In this document: positions 57,468 to 64,000 of the stretch, in pieces
How positions within the stretch are numbered: position 1 is the stretch's first letter
Layout: every line of letters starts with the position of its first letter
Assembly: GCF_000300875.1 (NCBI RefSeq)
Contig: NZ_AMSG01000004.1
Location: 1-64,000 of the forward strand
Length of the DNA: 64,000 nt
Direction: 5' to 3'
Source of the DNA: Galbibacter marinus
Lineage (GTDB): Bacteria; Bacteroidota; Bacteroidia; Flavobacteriales; Flavobacteriaceae
Position numbers and translations under genes: made by a program
The notes under the pieces: model-generated
Told to the model about the DNA's origin: nothing
The model's input: the letters and a program-made list of their open reading frames with translations, nothing else
The model's database searches: none

Positions 57468-59996
57468 ATGGCAAAGAATTTGGTTATTGTAGAGTCACCT
57501 GCAAAAGCAAAAACAATTGAGAAATTTCTTGGTAAGGATTATAAGGTAGCGTCCAGTTTTGGACATATATCTGATCTTCCTGCTAGAGAGATGGGTGTGG
57601 ACGTGGAAAAAGGTTTTAAACCCAAGTATATTGTATCCTCAGATAAAAAAGCGGTTGTTAAGAAACTTAAGGAACTTGTTAAAAATGCAGAAACCGTCTG
57701 GCTAGCAAGTGATGAGGACCGAGAAGGGGAGGCCATTGCTTGGCACCTAGCAGAGACACTTAAATTAGACCAAGCAAATACCAAACGAATTGTATTTAAC
57801 TCCATTACTAAAAATGCCATTCAAAAGGCAATTGAAAATCCTAGAAGTATAGATTACAACCTAGTGAACGCGCAACAAGCGCGTAGGGTTTTGGATCGCC
57901 TTGTGGGCTATGAGTTGTCTCCTGTACTTTGGAAAAAAATAAAAACAGGGCTTTCTGCTGGTAGGGTTCAGTCCGTTTCTGTTCGTCTTATTGTAGAACG
58001 TGAACGTGAAATTAAAGAGTTCAATCCAGAGGCATCTTTTAGAGTGGTCGCTGAATTTAAAAATAGTGAAGAAACAGTCTTTAAAGCTAAACTAAACACT
58101 AATTTCGATACCAAAGAAGAGGCTAAAAAGTTTCTGGAAAAAAATATAGGCACCTCATTTCATATAGCTGACTTGGATACTAAGCCAGCCAAAAAGAGTC
58201 CTGCCGCTCCATTTACAACATCGACCCTTCAACAGGAGGCTTCAAGGAAATTATATTTTTCAGTTTCCAAAACCATGACTATTGCGCAGCGTCTATACGA
58301 GGCTGGGTTGATCACCTATATGAGGACCGATAGTGTTAATCTCTCACCTGAGGCTATTAATGCAGCAAAGGAGGAGATCGTTAGGTCTTATGGAGATAAG
58401 TTTTCGAAACCAAGAAATTATAACAAAAAATCTAAAGGAGCACAAGAGGCTCACGAGGCGATTCGTCCAACGGACATGAGCCGTCATAGCGTTCAAATCG
58501 ATAGAGATCAAGCTCGATTATATGATCTGATTTGGAAACGTACTTTGGCCTCACAGATGAGCGATGCACTTTTAGAGCGCACCAATGTGAAGGTTAAGGC
58601 AGAAAAGCACAATGAATTATTTGTTGCCAACGGGGAGGTGCTGAAATTCGAAGGATTCCTTAAAGTGTACTTAGAAGGAACCGATGAAGAGGATGAGGAT
58701 AGAGCAGGAATGTTACCTGCCTTAAAAGTGGGTGAACAAGTTTTTGAACAAAATATCACTGCAACTCAGCGATTTACTAGACCACCGTATCGTTACACGG
58801 AGGCCTCTTTAGTAAAAAAGCTCGAAGAACTTGGTATTGGTAGACCATCGACATATGCGCCTACCATATCCACCATACAAAATAGAGGTTATGTAGAGCG
58901 TGGTACCATTGAAGGGGTAGAGCGAAAATATTTGCAGTATTCTATTGTTAATAATACAGTTGCAGAGGCTACCCTAACTGAAACAGTAGGATCCGATAAA
59001 GGGAAACTCGTGCCAACAGATATTGGAATGATTGTAAACGATTTCTTGGTCAATCACTTTTCGAATATTTTAGATTATAACTTTACCGCTAAAGTGGAGC
59101 AAAGTTTTGATGATATTGCCTCTGGTGAGGAAGATTGGACTAAAATGATAGCATCTTTCTACAAAGATTTTCATCCCAACGTACTGCATGTAGAAGAAAA
59201 TGCAGATCGTGAAAGTGGAGAGCGTGTACTAGGTACAGATCCTGAGTCTGGCCGACAATTAAGTGTTCGTCTAGGGAGGTTTGGCCCAATGGCACAAATC
59301 GGAACTGTAGAAGAAGAGGAGAAGCCTCGTTTTGCGAGTTTGCTTCCAGATCAATCGATCGATTCCATAACTTTTCAAGAGGCGTTATCCTTGTTTAAAC
59401 TTCCCAGAACATTAGGGGAATATGAAGGAGAAGAAGTTCAAGTGAACGTTGGTCGATTCGGTCCTTATGTGCGATTCGGAAAGAGTTTTGTTTCGCTATC
59501 TCCAGGTGAAGATGTTTTTGATGTGAATTTCGATCGGGCTGTTGAACTCATTGAGCTTAAGAAGAAAGCTGATGCGCCAATTGCATGGTATAAGGATAAG
59601 GAAGTTACCAAAGGTAAAGGACGTTTTGGGCCATTTATTAAATATGATGGAATATTTATCAATGTTAACAAAAAGTACGATTTCGATAATCTCTCCCAAG
59701 AGGATATAGAAACCTTGATTGAGGATAAGCTTAAGAAGGAACGTGAAAAGGTAATTCACAATTGGGAGGATGAAGGAATACGCGTTGAAAAGGCGCGTTG
59801 GGGAAGATCCAATATTATTAAAGGAAAGACTAAGGTTGAATTGTCTAAAGATATAGATGCGACTAAACTTACTTTGGATCAGGTCAAAGAATTGATTGAG
59901 AAAAGCTCTTCGAAGAAGAAGACAGCTGCCAAGAAAAAGACCACCAAGAAAACCACCGCTAAAAAAACGACAACCAAATCCAAAACCAAAAAATAA
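57468..59996 (+). CDS. topA: DNA topoisomerase I
   Basis: The 842-residue type IA enzyme relaxes negative supercoils. The TOPRIM domain shows NLVIVESPAKAKTIEKFL and the acidic ASDEDREGEAIAWHL. The active-site Tyr is in LITYMRTDSVNLS (about residue 284). The C-terminal part has GRFGPMAQ, GRFGPYVRFG and GRFGPFIKYD repeats (about 600-730) and ends in a Lys/Thr-rich tail (about 815-842). The protein contains no cysteine at all, so it lacks the zinc-ribbon domains of E. coli TopA. It has its own promoter and is 10 bases ahead of the arginase-like gene. Confidence 0.97.
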   Translation: MAKNLVIVESPAKAKTIEKFLGKDYKVASSFGHISDLPAREMGVDVEKGFKPKYIVSSDKKAVVKKLKELVKNAETVWLASDEDREGEAIAWHLAETLKLDQANTKRIVFNSITKNAIQKAIENPRSIDYNLVNAQQARRVLDRLVGYELSPVLWKKIKTGLSAGRVQSVSVRLIVEREREIKEFNPEASFRVVAEFKNSEETVFKAKLNTNFDTKEEAKKFLEKNIGTSFHIADLDTKPAKKSPAAPFTTSTLQQEASRKLYFSVSKTMTIAQRLYEAGLITYMRTDSVNLSPEAINAAKEEIVRSYGDKFSKPRNYNKKSKGAQEAHEAIRPTDMSRHSVQIDRDQARLYDLIWKRTLASQMSDALLERTNVKVKAEKHNELFVANGEVLKFEGFLKVYLEGTDEEDEDRAGMLPALKVGEQVFEQNITATQRFTRPPYRYTEASLVKKLEELGIGRPSTYAPTISTIQNRGYVERGTIEGVERKYLQYSIVNNTVAEATLTETVGSDKGKLVPTDIGMIVNDFLVNHFSNILDYNFTAKVEQSFDDIASGEEDWTKMIASFYKDFHPNVLHVEENADRESGERVLGTDPESGRQLSVRLGRFGPMAQIGTVEEEEKPRFASLLPDQSIDSITFQEALSLFKLPRTLGEYEGEEVQVNVGRFGPYVRFGKSFVSLSPGEDVFDVNFDRAVELIELKKKADAPIAWYKDKEVTKGKGRFGPFIKYDGIFINVNKKYDFDNLSQEDIETLIEDKLKKEREKVIHNWEDEGIRVEKARWGRSNIIKGKTKVELSKDIDATKLTLDQVKELIEKSSSKKKTAAKKKTTKKTTAKKTTTKSKTKK

Positions 59997-60006
59997 TTAG
60001 TGAATT

Positions 60007-61164
60007 ATGAATGTTGAATTCCTAACACCTGTTTCAAATGCTGTATTGGCTCACAAAGAAGTTTTGCCTTCACAGGCTATAGGGAACAGCATTCGCATTC
60101 ACACCAAGACCGACGGCGTTCCAGAGCTTGATAATGTGCAACTTGCCATTATCGGAGTTAAGGAATCTCGCTCAGAGAGTGAGGTGGATATACAGGCTGT
60201 AGATCTAAATGTAATTCGAAAGGAATTTTACCAACTCTTCCAAGGTAATTGGCCATCTAATTTGGTGGATCTAGGGGATATTGAACCTGGAGAAACCCTA
60301 AAGGATACCTATTTTGCCTTAAGTTCCCTAGTGACCGATTTGTTGAAAAAGAGTATTGTTCCTATTGTAATTGGTGGGAGTCAGGACCTAACTTTTGCCA
60401 TGTATAGGGCTTATGATACCTTGGAGCAAATGGTAAATCTGACCTCAGTGGACAGTAAATTTGATCTTAGTGTCAATGATGAACTGATCTCTTCGAATGC
60501 TTTTATGAGTAAGATTATTATGGAGCAACCTAATAATTTGTTTAACTGCAGTATTGTGGGGTATCAAACTTATTATAATGCTCAGGAAGAAATTGATCTG
60601 ATTGAAAAATTGTTTTTTGACGCCTATAGACTAGGGGAGGTGATTAATGATATCACAATTGTAGAGCCTGTCTTTAGAGATACCGACCTAGTGAGTATCG
60701 ATATTACTTCGGTCAAAGCTACCGAGCTTGGGTATGCTGCCAATACTTATCCCAATGGCTTTGATGGGCGAGAAATTTGTGCCATCAGCCGTTATGCGGG
60801 AATAAGTGATAAGGTTACGTCCTTTGGGTTGTTTAACACCAAAAAGACCCCTCAGAGTGCACAATTGAGTGCTCAAATTATTTGGTATTTTATAGAAGGC
60901 TATAATTTTAGAAAAAAAGATTACCCTTTTATCACAAATGCGAACTACACGAAGTATATTGTGCCTTTAGAAGATATGGAACTTTGTTTTTTCAAGAGTA
61001 ATATCTCTGGTAGATGGTGGCTAGAGGTGCCACAAATTGAAAATTTAGATAATAAATTTAAAAGGCATGCGTTATTACCTTGCACACACAGTGAATATGT
61101 TCAAGCCAGCAAGGGTACCATACCTGAAAGATGGTGGAAAGCATATAAGAAAATGTTAGTTTAA
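60007..61164 (+). CDS. Arginase/formimidoylglutamase-fold protein with degenerate metal site
   Basis: The 385-residue protein aligns with the ureohydrolase fold. Blocks: VQLAIIGVKESRSE, VIGGSQDLTFAMYRAY (family GGDHS), the DSKFD segment at 149-153 (family DAHxD) and LVSIDITSV at about 230-236 (family SxDiDxxDP). Six metal ligands are expected; Asp149, Asp153 and Asp232 remain, but the GGDH His is Gln126, the DAHxD His is Lys151 and the second Asp of DxD is Thr234. It is therefore unlikely to bind two Mn ions and may be non-catalytic. About 80 extra residues follow the core, ending in a WWLEVP and RWWKAYKK tail. It lies 10 bases after topA and before gldK. Databases tend to label such proteins formimidoylglutamase; I do not support that activity. 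Confidence 0.8.
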   Translation: MNVEFLTPVSNAVLAHKEVLPSQAIGNSIRIHTKTDGVPELDNVQLAIIGVKESRSESEVDIQAVDLNVIRKEFYQLFQGNWPSNLVDLGDIEPGETLKDTYFALSSLVTDLLKKSIVPIVIGGSQDLTFAMYRAYDTLEQMVNLTSVDSKFDLSVNDELISSNAFMSKIIMEQPNNLFNCSIVGYQTYYNAQEEIDLIEKLFFDAYRLGEVINDITIVEPVFRDTDLVSIDITSVKATELGYAANTYPNGFDGREICAISRYAGISDKVTSFGLFNTKKTPQSAQLSAQIIWYFIEGYNFRKKDYPFITNANYTKYIVPLEDMELCFFKSNISGRWWLEVPQIENLDNKFKRHALLPCTHSEYVQASKGTIPERWWKAYKKMLV

Positions 61165-61311: not shown

Positions 61312-62667
61312 ATGAAAAAGCTATTTCTTTTAGCATCTGTTACATTATTATTGACCAGCTGTGGTTCTAATGACAGAGGAGAATTAGTTGGTGTTCAAGG
61401 GAAAAAATGGCATCCAGAAAAGCCCTACGGGATGTCTCTAGTTCCTGGAGGTGCCTTCATAATGGGTAGGTCTGATGAAGACATGGCCGATGTTCTCAAT
61501 GCTCCAACTAAAACAGTGACTGTTCGTTCATTTTATATGGACGAAACAGAGATAACCAATAGTGAATACAGGCAGTTTGTAGAGTGGGTAAAGGATTCTA
61601 TAGTCCGAACCAAGTTAGCTGTGCTAGCGGATGAACTTGGAGAAGTCCCTGGAACTGGTGGTATTGGTGAATTTGCTTTTAAAGATGCGGACACTTCAAA
61701 TCTGTCAGAGTACGATAAATACATGCTCTTTAATTATGCAGGAATGGGGGAAACTGGTTATGAAGGTAGAAGTCTGAACAAGGATGTAGATTTGATCTGG
61801 GATGTCACTGAGTATCCAGATGAATATTATGCGGAAGTTATGGATAGTGTTTATCTATCTACAGAGGAGTCCTATAACGGCCAACGCACTATTGATGTGA
61901 AGGAGCTCAAGTATAAATATAGCTGGATGGATATCCAAGCAGCTGCTAGAGCTAAAGGAGGTGGGAGTCGTTTGGACTTTATCAAACATGAAGAACTTAA
62001 TATTTATCCAGATACTACGGTTTGGATAAAGGATTTTGCATACTCTTATAATGAACCCATGCACAACGATTACTTTTGGAGTGAAGCTTATAGCGATTAC
62101 CCAGTGGTTGGTGTGACTTGGAAACAAGCCAAAGCATTTTGTGCTTGGAGAACTAAATACAAGAACGATTATCAAAAAGAAAATGGCAAGCAATTTGTCA
62201 ATCATTTTAGATTACCTACCGAGGCAGAATGGGAATATGCTGCTAGAGGTGGTATCCAATCTGGGACGTACCCCTGGGGAGGACCATATATATTGAATGA
62301 CCGTGGCTGTTTTATGGCTAACTTTAAGCCATTAAGAGGAGATTACGCAGCTGACCAAGCACTGTACACAGTGGAGGCAAAGTCGTATGATCCAAATGAC
62401 TACAATCTTTACAATATGGCAGGTAATGTTTCTGAATGGACAAATTCTTCATACGACCCCAATTCGTACGAATATGTTTCCACAATGAACCCTAATACTT
62501 ATGATGGCGAAAACAAACGTAAAGTTATTAGAGGAGGTTCATGGAAGGATGTAGCTTACTTTTTACAGGTTAGTACTAGAGATTATGAGTACCAAGACTC
62601 TGCGAGAAGTTACATCGGCTTTAGAACGGTACAAGACTATATGGGTACAGAGTCCACCGTTAATTAA
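61312..62667 (+). CDS. gldK: Gliding motility / type IX secretion lipoprotein GldK
   Basis: ATG 61312 gives 451 residues; an in-frame TTG two codons earlier is less likely. The lipoprotein signal has lipobox LLTSC (Cys17). The protein is a formylglycine-generating-enzyme-like (FGE-sulfatase) domain with SLVPGGAFIMGRSDEDM, YMDETEITNSEYRQFVEW, FRLPTEAEWEYAARGG and MAGNVSEWTNSSYD, then RKVIRGGSWKD and SYIGFRTV. GldK (PorK) sits in the outer membrane and forms the periplasmic ring of the type IX secretion system with GldN. It is followed by gldL and gldM. Confidence 0.95.
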   Translation: MKKLFLLASVTLLLTSCGSNDRGELVGVQGKKWHPEKPYGMSLVPGGAFIMGRSDEDMADVLNAPTKTVTVRSFYMDETEITNSEYRQFVEWVKDSIVRTKLAVLADELGEVPGTGGIGEFAFKDADTSNLSEYDKYMLFNYAGMGETGYEGRSLNKDVDLIWDVTEYPDEYYAEVMDSVYLSTEESYNGQRTIDVKELKYKYSWMDIQAAARAKGGGSRLDFIKHEELNIYPDTTVWIKDFAYSYNEPMHNDYFWSEAYSDYPVVGVTWKQAKAFCAWRTKYKNDYQKENGKQFVNHFRLPTEAEWEYAARGGIQSGTYPWGGPYILNDRGCFMANFKPLRGDYAADQALYTVEAKSYDPNDYNLYNMAGNVSEWTNSSYDPNSYEYVSTMNPNTYDGENKRKVIRGGSWKDVAYFLQVSTRDYEYQDSARSYIGFRTVQDYMGTESTVN

Positions 62668-62720: not shown

Positions 62721-63383
62721 ATGGCACAATCGAAATCATCTAAGAAATTGTTTACCATGGCCTACGGGCTAGGAGCATCTATTGTAATTTTAGGTGCATT
62801 GTTTAAACTTACTCACTGGGAATTTGGTCCTTTAAACGGAACCGTCCTATTGGCAGTGGGGTTAATTGCAGAGGCAATTATATTTGCTATTTCTGCATTT
62901 GAGCCTGTTGATGAAGATTTAGACTGGACACTTGTATATCCAGAACTTGCTACAGGGGCTGCAATTGGAGCTTCTCGTAAAAACCAAGCTTTGGAGATTA
63001 AAGAAGCTGAAGGACAGCTTTCAAAAAAACTAGACGATATGTTGAAGGAGGCTAAAATTGATTCTTCTTTAATGGCTAGTCTTGGTGATAGCATCCGAAA
63101 CTTCGAAGGCGCTGCAAAAGGAATTGCTCCTACCGCTGAAGCCTTGACTTCAACTAAAAAATACAGTGAAGAACTTTCTCTAGCTGCAGCTCAAATGGAG
63201 TCGCTTAACAGCCTCTATAAAGTGCAATTAGATAGCGCTAATAGACAAGCGGCGATTCAAGAAGAAGTTGCATCTAATGCTGGTAGATTAAAAGACGAAA
63301 TGCGTTCCCTTACTTCAAACCTGAGCTCGTTGAACTCGGTGTATGGTGGAATGTTAACTGCTATGAATAAAACGGCTAATTAA
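62721..63383 (+). CDS. gldL: Type IX secretion / gliding motor protein GldL
   Basis: The 220-residue inner-membrane protein has two helices (about 12-30 and 38-60). The second carries the conserved membrane Glu (VGLIAEAIIFAIS, about residue 51) that is essential for the proton-driven motor, and the first a Lys (about 29). The rest is a cytoplasmic helical domain with coiled coil (about 90-220). GldL surrounds the GldM dimer. It follows gldK by 53 bases. Confidence 0.95.
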   Translation: MAQSKSSKKLFTMAYGLGASIVILGALFKLTHWEFGPLNGTVLLAVGLIAEAIIFAISAFEPVDEDLDWTLVYPELATGAAIGASRKNQALEIKEAEGQLSKKLDDMLKEAKIDSSLMASLGDSIRNFEGAAKGIAPTAEALTSTKKYSEELSLAAAQMESLNSLYKVQLDSANRQAAIQEEVASNAGRLKDEMRSLTSNLSSLNSVYGGMLTAMNKTAN

Positions 63384-63436: not shown

Positions 63437-64000
63437 ATGGCAGGAGGAAAATTATCACCACGTCAGAAGATGATTAACCTGATGTATCTGGTTTTCATCG
63501 CAATGTTGGCGTTGAATATGAGTAAAGAAGTCTTATCGGCTTTCGGTCTACTGAACGAAAAGCTGACAAACTTCAATGAAAAAGCAACAGAGAGAAACTT
63601 GGCTGCTTTTAACGATTTGAAATTAAAATCCACGGAGCAACCTGAAAAATACGAAGCCCTATTTAACAATGTTGAAAAGGTGAGGGAATCTTCAGTGAAT
63701 TTCAATAGTTACCTAGACAGCCTAAAATCTGCAATGGTTGCTGAGATTGACCCTGAAGAGCGTTCGGATTACGAGGTTATGGATAAGTCGGCATTTCTTG
63801 ATCAGGCCTTTTTTGGAGGTGGTATTTATACCGCTGAGGGTCAAAAGTTTGTCGATTACATCGACGAATTTAGAAATACCACCATTAGCACCATAAACCA
63901 AATCCCTGATTCACTAATGAGAGTTGATCGAAAAGAATCCTTAGTGTCTTCTATTGAAGCGAGATTCAATACCGGGGATGAAAATGGTAAGGTGCTCAAT
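63437..64000 (+). CDS. gldM: Type IX secretion / gliding motor protein GldM, N-terminal part (3' end outside window)
   Basis: The frame is open from ATG 63437 to the window end (188 codons). It starts AGGKLSPRQKMINLMYLVFIAMLALNMSKEVLSAFG, the single membrane helix (about 13-33), followed by the first periplasmic domain helices (LTNFNEKATERNLAAFNDLKLKSTEQ). GldM crosses the membrane with GldL and reaches the GldK-GldN ring. Family length is about 510 residues. Confidence 0.95.
   Translation, partial: MAGGKLSPRQKMINLMYLVFIAMLALNMSKEVLSAFGLLNEKLTNFNEKATERNLAAFNDLKLKSTEQPEKYEALFNNVEKVRESSVNFNSYLDSLKSAMVAEIDPEERSDYEVMDKSAFLDQAFFGGGIYTAEGQKFVDYIDEFRNTTISTINQIPDSLMRVDRKESLVSSIEARFNTGDENGKVLN

Follow-up and report, generated by a model that had tools for sequence, protein, structure and literature searches.

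Non-catalytic proteins with an arginase fold are already known. In T. brucei, an arginase-like protein reportedly keeps the arginase fold without the binuclear Mn cluster, PDB 4rhi and other entries presumably being structures of this protein. A second case is MetCb (MfmB) of metformin hydrolase (8x3g, 8snf, 8ryi), a metal-free arginase-fold subunit that acts as a binding partner, needs the active paralogue MetCa and has an extended C-terminal loop at the interface (excerpt of PMC11271267). Two further systems bear on the locus described here, namely the formimidoylglutamase HutG (TIGR01227; 2a0m, 3m1r, 1xfk) and the T9SS/gliding core gldK-gldL-gldM with porP.

The window, that is the whole 64,000-nucleotide stretch of Galbibacter marinus DNA that was analysed, carries a 385-aa open reading frame between topA and gldK (Table 1). 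HutG is the family nearest to its product in both fold and sequence (Z 33.8; 42.3 bits), but the window protein lies below the HutG cut-off, has three metal ligands and the guanidinium-binding Glu replaced and bears an 82-residue tail. With MetCb/MfmB it shares the arginase fold, the apparent loss of the metal cluster, a C-terminal extension and, putatively, the role of a binding partner; it differs in being 14-18% identical to the metformin hydrolase structures compared and in belonging to other taxa. Unlike MetCb, which needs MetCa, it stands in 8 of the 20 genomes chosen with no second arginase-family match. The protein of T. brucei is likewise an arginase fold without the binuclear cluster and a weak sequence match, but it belongs to a trypanosome and is reached at an E of 0.27 only (4rhi_A). 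The T9SS/gliding core is an old chromosomal neighbour of the gene, but no NCBIfam T9SS model matches the protein, and the gene and T9SS markers are each found without the other. In a full-text literature search covering few subscription papers, no paper among the matches listed connects a protein of the arginase family with T9SS, gldK or gliding, and no description of the tail-bearing family was found; in the excerpts of PMC9169529 (gldK and arginase) and PMC4755523 (type IX secretion and arginase) the words are used apart. The reading preferred here, at roughly even odds (about 0.5), is that of a class-wide, cytoplasmic, metal-free arginase-fold pseudoenzyme with a binding or regulatory role, possibly a T9SS/gliding accessory and perhaps made together with topA.

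Table 1. Features of the 385-aa reading frame and of its neighbours in the window.
Feature	Coordinates	Strand	Evidence
Putative arginase-fold pseudoenzyme gene, 385 aa	60007..61164	+	ORF; PF00491 and TIGR01227 scores
topA	57468..59996	+	Stop 10 bases upstream of the 385-aa gene; frequent upstream neighbour of the family
gldK, first of the downstream T9SS/gliding core	61312..62667	+	TIGR03525 613.4 bits, above cut-off 350
gldL	62721..63383	+	TIGR03513 213.1 bits, above cut-off 68.3
gldM by position, runs off the window	63437..64000	+	ORF; named by its position behind gldL and from family knowledge
Arginase-fold core (predicted), residues 20-303	60064..60915	+	AF2 model and structural alignment
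C-terminal tail, residues 304-385, near-invariant W337 and C359	60916..61161	+	Absent from 13 ligand-keeping relatives
Gln126 replacing ligand His (GGSQD)	60382..60384	+	Q 179, H 16 of 206 tail-bearing; H 11, N 2 of 13 tail-less
D149-S-K151-F-D153, Lys151 replacing ligand His, both Asp kept	60451..60465	+	Alignment, 206 tail-bearing
E220-P-V-F-R224 (EPxxR)	60664..60678	+	E220 and R224 about 100%, P221 99% of 206; near-invariant in the tail-bearing lineage, not in tail-less relatives
D232-I-T234, Thr replacing second Asp of DxD	60700..60708	+	D234 in 5/206 tail-bearing, 13/13 tail-less
Asn277 replacing guanidinium-binding Glu	60835..60837	+	E 121, N 64 of 206 tail-bearing; E 13/13 tail-less

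The place and 10-base gap after topA (stop at 59996) are as the earlier note had given them; its downstream neighbour gldK is also borne out, the gap being 147 bases to the in-frame ATG at 61312 and not the 148 proposed. By profile, the window protein belongs to the superfamily (PF00491, 27.7 bits for a cut-off of 22) and falls outside the curated HutG equivalog, its best NCBIfam model, whose cut-off of 229.15 bits is far above its score. No Pfam or NCBIfam model dedicated to the tail-bearing family is found among the matches. Among 38 family members scanned with NCBIfam, 37 match the HutG model at E 0.001, 24 match agmatinase models and five match arginase models, and the T9SS models match neither these members nor the window protein. 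One member of the family alignment A2 is weakly matched by SecA models (best E 2e-4), the tails being free of SecA matches. No signal peptide is seen by eye in the window protein, which is accordingly predicted to be cytoplasmic.

An AlphaFold2 model made from the window protein and 53 relatives reaches a mean pLDDT of 88.5 and a pTM of 0.90. VIA-align, applied to Foldseek matches, superposes model residues 20-303 on the T. cruzi formiminoglutamase 2a0m/4myn with a Z of 33.8, at 2.2 Å over 273 residues. Together with a PF00491 score above the cut-off, the predicted structure upholds the arginase fold that had been proposed from the letters alone. The additional segment, put earlier at roughly 80 residues outside the core, comprises 82 residues after the matched core, where the ligand-keeping relatives have just 3-8 residues past position 300. 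Taken alone, this tail is modelled by AF2 at a pLDDT of 77.7; Foldseek gives no match to it at E up to 0.001, and the best VIA-align score is a Z of 3.6 at 4.5 Å. Several small DNA-binding domains figure among the weak rows and are read as chance. Across 38 tails, no Pfam family is common to more than two and no NCBIfam family to more than one.

Of the six metal-binding positions (H, D, H, D, D, D), three are replaced in the window protein, as is the Glu of column 277, which we take to be the guanidinium-binding Glu of arginases; the numbering of Q126, D149, K151, D153, D232 and T234 is confirmed. These positions were compared in 219 distinct sequences, 206 tail-bearing and 13 tail-less, the former unevenly sampled since up to 80 come from one mostly Flavobacteriaceae search. 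Duplicates (L075, L127, L128, L137) were dropped, L233 gave no match and L124-L126 were not inspected; also outside the set are the window's own gene (L004, L005, L066) and two paralogues from its genome without a family-profile match (L059, L060). Five or six ligands are kept by none of the tail-bearing sequences, four by 15, three by 175, two by eight, one by seven and none by a single sequence, whereas the tail-less relatives keep six (10 sequences) or five (three sequences). The loss is therefore not a matter of chance, since the two sets do not overlap: 0 of 206 tail-bearing and 13 of 13 tail-less sequences reach five or six ligands.

The replacements are not uniform across the family, positions 126, 151 and 234 being mixed. 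Position 151 is Lys in 78 tail-bearing sequences, Arg in 69 and His in four, and the column that is Asn277 in the window protein holds a residue other than Glu in 85 of 206. Asp149 is kept in 199, Asp153 in 185 and Asp232 in 199 tail-bearing sequences, all three together in 185; Lys or Arg at 151 accompanies the complete triad in 141 of these 185 and is found in 6 of the 21 others. Within the 54 sequences of the window's taxonomic order (window included), position 126 is Gln in 45, His in five, Asn in three and Asp in one, position 151 is never His and position 234 is Asp in three. Six orthologues of the same genus (L006-L011, 73-77% identical) all lack His151 and Asp234, L011 alone keeping His126. 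A sequencing error is unlikely for that reason, and was discarded as the cause of the ligand changes. None of the homologues examined at the topA-gldK boundary keeps all six ligands; the case that the earlier note named as refuting its view did not turn up there. Outside the ligand positions, residues near-invariant in the tail-bearing set and not in the tail-less one include R208, E220, R224, C258 and W293 of the core, with F328, W337, W338 and C359 of the tail.

From these alignments, catalysis appears to have been lost in the tail-bearing family. The earlier argument, that losing three ligands makes the usual mechanism unlikely, is in keeping with the absence of any tail-bearing sequence with five or six ligands. 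The replaced Glu at 277 was not part of that earlier argument. The three kept Asp could still hold one metal ion, and an alternative, which we regard as improbable, is that the protein remains an enzyme of altered chemistry, using the Asp triad, with or without a single metal, together with a new nucleophile or base. The strong retention of the three Asp speaks for it, as do the near-invariant R71, D88, Q187, E220, R224 and C359, but positions 151, 234 and 277 vary widely, and the f5 members examined (L056, L057, L111) have lost all three Asp while fold and tail are retained in the alignment. The f19 members L101-L103, degraded in their N-terminal half, also stand against continued catalysis. 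Our reading is rather that the chemistry would have been lost in the common ancestor and that other constraints have acted on the protein since.

A tree of 54 of the 219 rows, built by a short search on core columns only (tail excluded), separates its 41 tail-bearing rows from the others by a single branch with an SH-aLRT of 96; some of its branches are long. Among the matches listed from 395 genomes of the phylum, no tail-bearing form occurs outside class Bacteroidia, matches in other classes reaching no further than position 322 of the 387 in the profile. A single origin of the pseudoenzyme is probable, from an enzyme like formimidoylglutamase and at the base of class Bacteroidia or close to it. 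Profile A2 finds the family at E 1e-20 in 371 of 396 sampled Bacteroidia genomes, G521 being counted as present at 3e-21 without a check of its tail. Twenty-five genomes are without the gene, five of them (G719, G731, G743, G755, G767) taken as such from being GldK-table genomes missing from the gene positives. The family is thus class-wide and far larger than is visible from the window alone, and, as judged by comparison of sequences, a non-canonical class-wide arginase-fold protein is real.

Comparisons within the genus point to purifying selection. Two same-genus pairs give, by NG86, dN of 0.156 and 0.178 with saturated dS of 2.6 and 3.6, and two further pairs dN of 0.176 and 0.183 with no dS obtained; internal stops are absent from the best 150 gene rows listed. 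That the gene is a decaying hutG-like remnant with no function is a very remote prospect: the lost ligands and the three strongly degraded f19 copies would fit it, but the match in 371 of 396 genomes, dN of 0.16-0.18 with saturated dS and residues invariant across families do not.

The gene order is also conserved. Both topA and gldK are matched beside the gene on 49 of the 53 stretches from the window's taxonomic order (L006-L058), the exceptions being L044, L056, L057 and L058. Over a broader range, a same-strand gldK is found no more than 6 kb from the gene in 65 of the 76 genomes that appear in both the gene and the GldK listing, and in 17 of 18 families (f17, 0 of 10). As this count draws on the 150 best rows of either listing, it is weighted towards typical members. 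In 26 further loci from 26 families (L207-L232), the order topA - gene - porP - gldK is found in 21 (L208 counted by gene-match coordinates, its gene row being hidden by a longer opposite ORF). Gene - porP - gldK occurs without topA in L215, topA without porP or gldK in L228, L229 (on a short contig, with an intervening ORF) and L230, and neither neighbour in L226. The ORF often found between the gene and gldK is PorP/SprF (L042 by search, others by clustering). The old gene order also includes miaB and topA, though these are not T9SS genes. In the fetched loci of f17, f18, f22, f23 and f99, neither topA nor gldK stands beside the gene; three of four f18 loci have the gene adjoining an S13 D-Ala-D-Ala carboxypeptidase gene (L097 by search, L095 and L098 by clustering). 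Among the five f19 loci, three (L101-L103) have the N-terminally degraded gene beside murF and gldJ, another gliding locus, with porP next in two, the names murF and gldJ being taken from L101.

Spacing within this order is asymmetric. The gene's frame opens a median of 11 nt after the topA stop (23 loci), as against a median of 130 nt between the end of the gene and the porP frame (21 loci). This tight spacing to topA and loose spacing to porP suggests that topA and the gene share a transcript and that porP-gldK forms a unit of its own downstream; a scan for sigma-70 promoters and terminators around the gene gave only chance-level results. The main rival explanation starts from the same figures and from the 10 and 147 bases of the window: the protein would be functionally tied to topoisomerase I or to another housekeeping process, gldK being merely an old neighbour. 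It gains from the families in which topA stands beside the gene without gldK (f79, f82 and f103, the last with a 149-aa ORF between and a contig that ends soon after), from one of three f5 loci with topA directly beside the gene and no gldK (L057), and from G495, where topA adjoins the gene and no T9SS marker is matched. We nevertheless consider it rather unlikely, since f20 and f105 keep gene - porP - gldK without topA, f17, f18, f22, f23 and f99 have neither neighbour beside the gene, and G045 and G047 have lost the gene but retain topA.

Co-occurrence has to be read with caution. Over the 396 Bacteroidia genomes, GldK (E 1e-60) is found in 384 and the gene in 371; 366 have both, five the gene only, 18 GldK only and seven neither (Fisher p 1e-6), a table confounded by family f25, which supplies 11 of the 25 genomes without the gene, with or without GldK (five of the seven double negatives and six of the 18 with GldK only). 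Of the gene-only genomes (G415, G495, G559, G621, G683), four are assemblies of 130-360 contigs. Assembly gaps play a part in these counts, because SprA is present in G559 and G683, SprA with GldL in G621, and SprA in G497, a genome counted as having neither. The table therefore does not prove a functional tie. Among the marker genes themselves, a gldL match with four in-frame stops (G770:C22:42123-42809) may be a broken gene or faulty sequence, and in the single-contig genome G061 (f17) GldK and GldL are found with no SprA match.

The exceptions go both ways. GldK, GldL and SprA occur without a tail-bearing copy in G044, G047, G048 (weak core matches only, E 7e-14 and 3e-4), G057, G246, G403 and G587; in G045, GldK and GldL are present with no SprA match and no copy of the gene. 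In G047 (L237) topA is directly followed by porP - gldK and in G045 (L236) by gldK, which indicates a clean loss of the gene from its place. Conversely, G415 (L234) and G495 (L242) keep the gene while neither GldL nor SprA gives a match and GldK gives none at E 1e-60, the best GldK-model match of G415 scoring 95.5 bits, below the cut-off. In G495, where the gene follows topA, a gap in the 130-contig assembly is possible; it is less so in G415 (30 contigs, 99% complete). From these exceptions in both directions it follows that the gene is neither required for keeping T9SS nor useless without it, and a strict dependence between the two is rejected either way. As to the suggestion in the earlier note of a repurposed fold linked to the gliding/T9SS module, repurposing and an old gldK neighbourhood are upheld by the ligand counts and the conserved order, but the functional link is weakened by the tight topA spacing, by G415 and G495 and by the seven genomes with T9SS and no gene. 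The T9SS/gliding link is only partly supported.

The MetCb precedent raises another alternative, in which the protein would pair with an active ureohydrolase as the non-catalytic half of a heteromer, on the pattern of MetCb and MetCa. The window's genome offers candidate partners, as it has four PF00491 matches, of which the 385-aa gene is the weakest (28.4 bits). The other three are an agmatinase above the cut-off (L059), an agmatinase below it (L060) and a HutG below it (L061). The partner need not be an active arginase paralogue, because another PF00491 match is absent in 8 of 20 chosen, mostly small, genomes. These absences are not certain, as three of the eight genomes are 86-93% complete and the PF00491 model, which overlooked the gene itself in G026 and G056, may pass over divergent members. 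Seven single matches were placed at the gene, the place of that of G645 not being compared. A heteromer with an active paralogue is thus quite improbable as a general role.

The paralogues have contexts of their own. On contig C3, the agmatinase gene lies between arginine decarboxylase-like and deoxyhypusine synthase-like genes (L059:554-3792), a probable polyamine cluster. The second HutG-like protein (L061:1857-2870, also contig C3) scores 92.1 bits, below the HutG cut-off, keeps all six ligands and adjoins the EttA gene.

Taken as a mechanism, the preferred pseudoenzyme reading would run as follows. Starting probably from a formimidoylglutamase-like ancestor, the lineage has, as sequence comparison shows, lost metal ligands throughout and gained a new C-terminal tail and the EPxxR motif. 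The side chain of Lys or Arg151 may stand in for the charge of the metals and hold the former active site shut. The conserved fold and tail would bind a partner, protein or ligand, instead of catalysing hydrolysis. More tentatively, the protein may be made on one transcript with topoisomerase I and serve as an accessory or regulatory factor for the neighbouring T9SS/gliding machinery. Such a role would not be strictly required, and some use without T9SS must exist. The narrower proposals are held with less confidence: a binding or regulatory pseudoenzyme with a T9SS/gliding tie is a possibility on the doubtful side, and the same tentative standing goes to its fullest form, an overlooked class-wide cytoplasmic T9SS/gliding accessory or regulator derived from a formimidoylglutamase turned metal-free binder, with an Asp triad and a Lys/Arg in place of metals and a tail of conserved Trp and Cys.

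Matches of formimidoylglutamase, agmatinase or arginase models at this locus may mislead. Pathway predictions that take them at face value would be wrong there, because no tail-bearing member examined keeps the residues for ureohydrolase chemistry. The old place of the gene before porP-gldK makes it a natural and easily deleted candidate for the T9SS/gliding field, and the genomes in which it has been lost, or kept alone, are natural experiments.
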